Shown one piece after another: positions 31,508 through 64,000 of a DNA stretch of 64,000 bases (its first letter is position 1; each line of letters begins with the position of its first letter). This stretch comes from Scedosporium boydii. Lineage: Eukaryota > Ascomycota > Sordariomycetes > Microascales > Microascaceae. A program made the translations under genes and the position numbers. The notes beneath the pieces were generated by a model that saw only the letters and a program-made list of their open reading frames with translations, was not told the origin of the DNA and did no database searches. The stretch spans positions 40,633-104,632 of the forward strand of contig NJFT01000146.1 of the NCBI GenBank assembly GCA_002221725.1. The letters run 5' to 3'.

Positions 31508-31591
31508 GCCCGTATAGCTCAGTGGTAGAGCGCATCACTAGTACGAGCTAGTGGAATGATGAGGTCCCTGGTTCGATCCCAGGTGTGGGCA
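31508..31591 (+). tRNA. tRNA-Thr(AGT) with a 12-nt intron
   Basis: The cloverleaf is complete: the 7-bp acceptor stem pairs GCCCGTA with TGTGGGC (two G-T pairs) and A31591 is the discriminator; the D arm is GCTC/GAGC; the anticodon stem is CATCA/TGATG; the T arm contains GGTTCGATCCC, a perfect B box. The A box is TAGCTCAGTGG. The anticodon loop CTAGTA with final A is interrupted after position 37 by CGAGCTAGTGGA (31544-31555), the canonical site for tRNA introns. The anticodon AGT (31540-31542) reads threonine ACU/ACC after conversion of A34 to inosine. Without intron the tRNA is 72 nt. Confidence 0.95.
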
Positions 31592-62500: not shown

Positions 62501-63176
62501 GGGTTGCAGTAAAGACCCTGTCCCCAGATCGACAAGTGGCGAGCTCATGGCTCAACCCATGACTTATCAAGGCGTTTTATCAAGAACTCCCAGCTAACTT
62601 CGGCTGATTTGCCTACCGTCGCCAGCCAGCGCCGGGGTGATCGATGCCCCTTGCCCAGCCAGGCTGCGCCGGCGCATCAGCACCGGAATCGCAGATTCCT
62701 TTCGGATAAGGAGATGGCGGAGCCGATCAACGAGTCATCGAGTCTCAAGAATAAGAGGATGATTTCTAGCCTTTCTAGCCCGTAAAGGCTATGAATGCGC
62801 AAGATCTGCTCCGACGAGGAAGAAGTCATCGCGAACCAGTCCAGCTGCAAGTCGTCGCAAAAAGAACTCCCTCTGCGAATGCGCCTCCTGCCCCTGTGCG
62901 CGCAGGGTGTCCTACTCGCAAGATGAGCAAGGAGTTAACGGAGGGAGAATTTAAACTTCAAAGTTTCTATCTTCAATAAGTAATTGCCCTTTCAGAGCAT
63001 ATTTCATTGCTAAGCGTCTGGTATTCCGACCTCCTTGCGATCCGACGCAACCTCGATCAATTCAGGTTGTGTGCGGGGACATAGGGCGGGGTTGATGGCA
63101 ATGGGCTGTCAAGATTGAGCGGTGCGATTTGGAGAGTGGGGGCGCTAAGAGGGTAGCTTTAAGTATCAAATAAGAG
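59502..63176. other. gene-poor stretch (3.7 kb)
   Basis: Promoter region of the SH3 gene and then unassigned DNA. A 200-codon minus frame at 59895-60494 lies in a pyrimidine/purine-skewed leader and has no domain. Exact copies of the dispersed word are at 60715-60723 (TACTTCGTA) and 62337-62345 (TACGAAGTA), with near copies at 60902 and 60936. No gene supported. Confidence 0.5.
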
Positions 63177-63228
63177 GACGAAGCTTTCGCCTTCGGGCAT
63201 TTGGTCAATTTGCAAAAATACAGAGAAG

Positions 63229-63286
63229 GTAAATATCTCCCAGATGAATTCCCTCCTTACAGCGATATACTAACTAAGTCCTACAG
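63229..63286 (+). other. 58-nt spliceosomal intron inside U6
   Basis: Begins GTAAAT, has the optimal branch sequence TACTAAC at 63268-63274 and ends CCTACAG. Removing it restores an uninterrupted U6 catalytic core. Introns in U6 genes are known from S. pombe and some other fungi. Confidence 0.9.
63243..63251 (+). promoter_or_regulatory. possible intronic B box of U6
   Basis: GATGAATTC matches the tRNA-type B-box core GWTCRANNC at all fixed positions but one (G instead of C at position 4). S. pombe U6 also carries its B box inside its intron, so this is a candidate TFIIIC site; the match is not strong on its own. Confidence 0.4.
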
Positions 63287-63340
63287 ATTAGCATGGTCCC
63301 TGCACAAGGATGACACGCTCAATCAAAGAGAAGCTACCAA

Positions 63341-63348
63341 TTTTTTTT
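63341..63348 (+). terminator. Pol III terminator of U6
   Basis: Eight consecutive T residues directly after the U6 3' tail. Confidence 0.88.
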
Positions 63349-64000
63349 GCCAATTTTTTCGACAGCGAATTGTAGTTTTCTTTTGCTTTTGTCAAGTGTA
63401 ATTAAAACGCTGGGTAGATTGGTAGAATAGTCTTGTAAAAGCTGTGTTGTAGACGACTTGTTCTCAAGTGATATGATTGGGTCCGGGGATGGACTTTCTT
63501 AGCCTGCGCTATTTTACATAAAACTGTCTATCACCGAGAAGGGAGATCGCTTCTCTGCGACGAAGAGAAGAGGCTTGGACATCTTCACTTGATAATACGG
63601 ACAAATGCAGTGCAACGGAAGAAACTGACCACAAAAAGAAGAAAAAAAGCTTGAGTATTGGTGAGTTGAACGTAGACTCAATAACTGCATATGGGCAACA
63701 ATGGGTTTGTGCTCAACGACAAAGAAGCACAAGCTGTAACAGTGGATAGGGAGAGCGCCACTCGTGTTGAAGGCTTGAGGATTGCTCAACAAAGCTGGCA
63801 AGCGACACGGCGCATGTGCAGCCGAGCATGTCTTTGATAGTGGATGCGCAAACAGCTATTAGGTTTCGCCTTGCCTCCCTTGCATCGCCCTTAATAAAGC
63901 TTCCCGAGACGAGGACGCATAAACACTTCGAGGCGATCTTCTCCCTTTCAATCTCAAGTCCAACACGCCTAAACCTGCTTCTCAAAGACAGCCAAAAAAA
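63349..64000. other. right edge; possible partial minus-strand gene
   Basis: Downstream of U6. A minus-strand frame open from the window edge to 63713 encodes a stretch with coding-like composition (RFRRVGLEIEREKIA, then KGDAREARRNLIAVC), but no family is recognised and no splice structure could be fixed. It may be the 3' part of a gene that begins outside the window. Confidence 0.3.

Follow-up and report, generated by a model that had tools for sequence, protein, structure and literature searches.

Scedosporium boydii carries a U6 snRNA gene with a predicted spliceosomal-type intron near its catalytic core, and an intronless U6 gene elsewhere

The window, i.e. the whole stretch of DNA analysed here, is 64,000 nucleotides of Scedosporium boydii (contig C146, positions 40633–104632), from an assembly of 42.9 Mb in 442 contigs that was itself searched. 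It encodes an IQGAP-like protein of 1642 aa which, over the 641 residues searched, shares 99% identity with a protein of Scedosporium apiospermum and 94% with a protein of Lomentospora prolificans. The first of these matches bears out the Sordariomycete host assumed in a preliminary description of the locus, made from the sequence alone. A tRNA gene lies at 31508–31591 on the plus strand (Rfam, 57.3 bits). ARAGORN gave it no name; visual inspection suggests a tRNA-Thr whose AGT anticodon is followed by a short intron.

Close to the right end of the window, the Rfam U6 model RF00026 was matched end to end (model positions 1–105 of 105) at 63189–63345 on the plus strand, with one insertion of 58 nt. 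The score, 64.4 bits (E 6.1e-14), exceeds the gathering score of 44. The Rfam match starts 12 nt downstream of 63177, the feature start given in the preliminary description. Exon 1 (63189–63228) extends from the 5' stem GCC-UUCG-GGC to ACAGAGAAG and includes the ACAGAG box (63220–63225). Exon 2 (63287–63345) starts with ATTAGCATGG and contains the AGC triad (63290–63292) and the U4-pairing region TGCACAAGGAT. A run of eight T (63341–63348), read directly from the letters, is the expected RNA polymerase III terminator, and the contig, like the window, ends 652 nt beyond it. The 66-codon frame previously noted over the gene (63201–63401) does exist, with TTG as its start codon.

The 58 nt that separate the exons (63229–63286, plus strand) begin with GTAAAT and end with CTACAG. 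They contain a TACTAAC branch site (63268–63274), which 12 nt, the final AG included, separate from exon 2. The signals of a U2-type intron are thus present, namely the GTAAAT donor, which is without the common G at position +5, the RCTRAC-like TACTAAC, and the 12 nt ending in CAG. The insertion point, AAG/A, is located 3 nt past the ACAGAG box, and is a proto-splice-type site, one of the four MAG/R sites in the mature RNA. Removal of the 58 nt joins ACAGAGAAG to ATTAGCATGG, a junction identical to that of an intronless U6 copy present elsewhere in the assembly and described below, from which the 58 nt are missing. The spacing of the ACAGAG box and the AGC triad then becomes normal, with the box at nt 32 and the triad at nt 44 in both copies. 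The preliminary description was therefore correct in the coordinates and nature of what it called a 58-nt GT-AG intron with a perfect TACTAAC, and the full-length RF00026 match agrees with its claim of a U6 gene interrupted at the very end of ACAGAGAAG, ahead of the AGC triad.

Judged from these letters, the insertion is a spliceosomal-type intron. That intron-like letters were assembled there by chance is hardly credible. The donor GTAAAT, not being the commonest form, would suit such an accident, but GT, AG and TACTAAC are all placed so that their removal restores the sequence of the paralog. Moreover, TACTAAC was found at a rate of about 0.05 per kb per strand in 146.5 kb (the window and loci L010–L037), so that only about 0.003 copies are expected in 58 nt; the rate itself is slightly inflated, because the sample counts the U6 intron twice, in the window and in the overlapping L028. 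Counts of intron-like patterns, relative to the mean of five shuffles, were small and uninformative as to splice-site preferences (2 versus 2.0 for the GTAAAT donor, 6 versus 2.4 for GTATGT and 2 versus 1.8 for GTAAGT). The absence of T-runs from the intron is also uninformative, since most segments of this length share it (83% of 58-nt segments are without TTTT, and 54% without TTT).

A search of the genome by DNA similarity revealed no related intron elsewhere; of the three matches obtained, one was the gene itself, and the others were the stretches of the intronless copy that correspond to the two exons. An insertion at AAG/A, near the ACAGAG box, is compatible with the standard idea of reverse splicing, and no source intron was found.

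The second U6 gene was detected by Rfam in the whole assembly, on contig C35 (155731–155829). It is uninterrupted and scores 88.5 bits. Rfam, DNA similarity and a 24-base core pattern (3 mismatches at most) all gave two U6 genes, the Rfam genome count being a lower bound as 47 of 2387 candidates were scored. A gapped U6 pattern matched the intron-bearing gene and two other places, on contigs C24 and C350. The C24 match was rejected as a further U6, its score of 31 being at chance level, since 300 shuffles with the shared 10-mer preserved reached up to 32.

The existence of the C35 gene bears on two statements of the preliminary description. According to the first, the catalytic RNA of the spliceosome has to be spliced by the spliceosome itself. 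Such a dependence is unsupported, because the genome also holds an intact U6 gene that has no intron and whose TATA and B box are better. The second was that an intact intronless U6 elsewhere, together with decay of the intron-bearing copy in close relatives, would make the latter a pseudogene; the search for other U6 copies proposed there yielded one such intact gene, which is the first half of this pair of observations.

We asked whether contig C35 is part of the same genome. The tetranucleotide distance between 17 kb of C35 and a reference consisting of the window and 26 pooled loci was 0.119. Control distances ranged from 0.104 to 0.119 for three pieces of the window and from 0.105 to 0.113 for four pieces of the pooled loci, which places C35 at the upper end of typical values, in a comparison where the control pieces belong to the reference and C35 does not. 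A glucose-transporter-like gene is located at a distance of about 5 kb from the U6 on C35. When it was searched against the assembly, 77 matches were listed: the gene itself came first, then a match that is 40% identical along roughly half of the gene, and the others were weaker by E-value, one of them being a 34-residue piece at 68% identity. As counter-evidence, for two proteins encoded on C35 around the intronless U6 (loci L042 and L043), no Scedosporium name appeared among the best 120 of 715 and 1523 hits, respectively, most of which are without full names. Among the matches listed, the best hits were unnamed proteins, with 91% identity along 71% of one query and 98% along the whole of the other. 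Contamination as the origin of the C35 U6 was rejected, given the typical composition and no sign of a second genome. Because its composition is similar and the next match of the transporter-like gene is at only 40%, the contig looks like the host's, and we judge on these grounds that it belongs to it.

The joined exons of the intron-bearing gene differ from the intronless copy at nine of 99 positions and agree at the other 90. None of these differences falls within nt 26–74, which leaves an identical run of 49 nt across the splice junction (after nt 40). This clustering is modestly significant (permutation P 0.014, 200,000 random placements). The genes end with T-runs of eight (intron-bearing) and seven (intronless). 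Identity between the downstream flanks was 0.44, versus 0.49 in shuffles, indicating no homology, and that between the upstream flanks was 0.54, versus 0.47 (s.d. 0.026), at most a weak excess. Since the flanks show little or no homology, a recent segmental duplication alone would not account for the identity of the exons. Such dissimilar flanks could also result if one copy originated from U6 RNA that had been reverse-transcribed.

This leads to a reading in which the intron-bearing gene is the older of the two, and the intronless one arose when spliced U6 RNA was copied back into DNA, as opposed to a history in which the other copy gained its intron. We regard this order of events as possible, though we lean against it. 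Largely unrelated flanks are what it predicts, and the segment CATTTGGTCAATTTG, near the 5' end of the intron-bearing copy, presumably matches budding yeast U6, while the intronless copy differs from it at 3 of 15 positions. A gene born from RNA would, however, have had to acquire the well-placed TATA and the exact downstream B box that the intronless gene possesses. In any event, this alternative concerns only the direction of change, and is not in conflict with a function of the intron-bearing gene.

The two copies differ in their promoter signals. For the C35 gene, there is a TATATA at -29, and 15 nt past its T-run comes a B box without mismatch, GTTCGATTC (positions 2148–2156 of locus L003); exact B-box matches are present in 1.7% of 58-nt segments. 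For the intron-bearing copy, the region from -45 to -15 contains no exact TATA, and 63180–63700, read on the plus strand, no exact B box. It displays a weak TATA-like stretch 20–31 nt upstream (63158–63169, plus strand; TTTAAG and TATCAA, one mismatch to TATAAG or TATAAA), and, within the intron, a weak B-box-like site, GATGAATTC (63243–63251, plus strand), with one mismatch to GWTCRANNC. The latter is not significant, because 21.5% of 11,008 58-nt segments hold a match of this quality. By these motifs, the intronless copy seems to have the stronger promoter of the two. One could imagine that the genes represent two polymerase III layouts, the B box lying past the terminator on C35 and within the intron in the other gene, the intron being kept as a promoter carrier and U6 being supplied under different controls, one of them gated by splicing. 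We find this scheme quite improbable.

The same weak signals would be expected if the intron-bearing copy were an untranscribed or decaying pseudogene, all U6 being supplied by the C35 gene, and the higher score of the latter points in the same direction, although the insertion itself lowers the score of the former. Against this stands the state of the copy: it has an intact core, intact splice signals (donor, branch site and acceptor) and an intact T-run, and the differences between the copies avoid the core. Furthermore, the 5' stem has kept the UUCG loop of the Rfam consensus in the intron-bearing copy, but not in the intronless one. A copy free of constraint is not expected to keep its core, three splice signals and a terminator, so that the intron-bearing gene is, on indirect and moderate evidence, probably functional; the conservation seen between the two copies of this genome also argues against decay. 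A pseudogene is therefore an improbable outcome.

We consider it likely that the intron-bearing gene is one of two U6 genes, that it is transcribed by RNA polymerase III, and that its intron is spliced out to give a product with the same core as that of the intronless gene, the cell not being dependent on this splicing. Transcription by polymerase III would follow from its U6 identity and T-run terminator. The 58-nt intron would be removed by the ordinary spliceosome, as suggested by the presence of GT, TACTAAC and AG where removal restores U6. The mature U6 so produced, with a catalytic core the same as that of the intronless gene's product, would then be used in spliceosomes alongside it. 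The cell need not depend on splicing the U6 transcript, because the intronless gene could in principle supply U6 alone. A single U4 was found, on contig C142, and U4/U6 stem II is predicted with both U6 copies. It is equally predicted in the unspliced RNA, whereas the canonical stem I was predicted in none of the three RNAs (spliced, intronless and unspliced). U4/U6 folding therefore says nothing about splicing, since stem II forms in the unspliced RNA too.

An intron in U6 is a known fungal phenomenon, for which several published cases support the preliminary description, and the Scedosporium copy adds a new one; no paper on a Scedosporium U6 gene was found within one literature collection. 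In Schizosaccharomyces pombe, an mRNA-type intron in U6 is attributed to Tani and Ohshima 1989 and Frendewey et al. 1990, as cited in PMC10484740 and PMC8917221. PMC10484740 places it near the catalytic nucleotides, and PMC8917221 describes northern blots in which both mature and intron-containing U6 were probed. The Scedosporium gene is likewise split by a predicted spliceosomal intron near the catalytic nucleotides. To our knowledge, the intron-bearing gene is the sole source of U6 in S. pombe, whereas an intronless U6 is also present here, on C35. A further difference concerns the B box, which is in the intron in Schizosaccharomyces, as reported by the title of Frendewey et al. 1990, while the intronic site found here has one mismatch and is not convincing.

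According to the title of Canzler, Stadler and Hertel (RNA Biology 2016, cited in PMC5832005, PMC7827515 and PMC9518982), introns were inserted multiple times in fungal U6 genes, and the present gene resembles the subject of that survey, as its title presents it, in having an intron within a fungal U6. Two U6 genes are also described in Colletotrichum sansevieriae, another Sordariomycete, as U6-1046 and U6-1751, one with 'extra regions' and the other plain; in the passage concerned, these regions are not called introns and their place is not given (PMC6908651). Similarly, excerpts on Trichoderma reesei mention two U6 gene promoters used for guide RNA, and one construct with a 'U6 snRNA promoter with 1st intron' (PMC10512326, PMC9518982), which recalls the two genes and the intron seen here; how many introns there are, and where, is not stated in these excerpts. 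Because of the Colletotrichum sansevieriae and Trichoderma reesei cases, the arrangement with two U6 genes may, by analogy, be widespread in these fungi.

Should both genes be expressed, they would form a natural pair in which the same catalytic RNA is made with and without a splicing step. With such a pair, in which the intronless copy would be the internal control, one could test directly whether the splicing of U6 acts as a limiting or a regulatory step. The gene also adds a Microascales case for placing the gains of U6 introns.

Scans for RNA genes produced some additional observations. A divergent second match to U2 snRNA was detected on contig C56 (111487–111704, minus strand; L046 positions 488–705), at 62.8 bits versus 137.5 for the copy on C1. 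It keeps the GUAGUA branch-recognition region and differs in the downstream stem, and is either a pseudogene or a variant. Fungal U3 genes often carry introns, as stated in a passage of PMC5832005. Two U3 snoRNA matches were found, both on the minus strand, at C154:61978–62255 (278 nt, L047) and C124:41595–41879 (285 nt, L048). They are without a large internal insertion, because these lengths cover the full model of 274 positions. Two scans of viral contigs with the U6 core pattern and one with the intron pattern gave no matches. A scan of contigs from prokaryote genomes gave one eukaryotic U6 (L041 positions 2304–2330, JAIYDP010000129.1), in a metagenome-assembled genome of Verrucomicrobiaceae; we take this U6 to be plant-like, and its presence in that contig is probably due to contamination.
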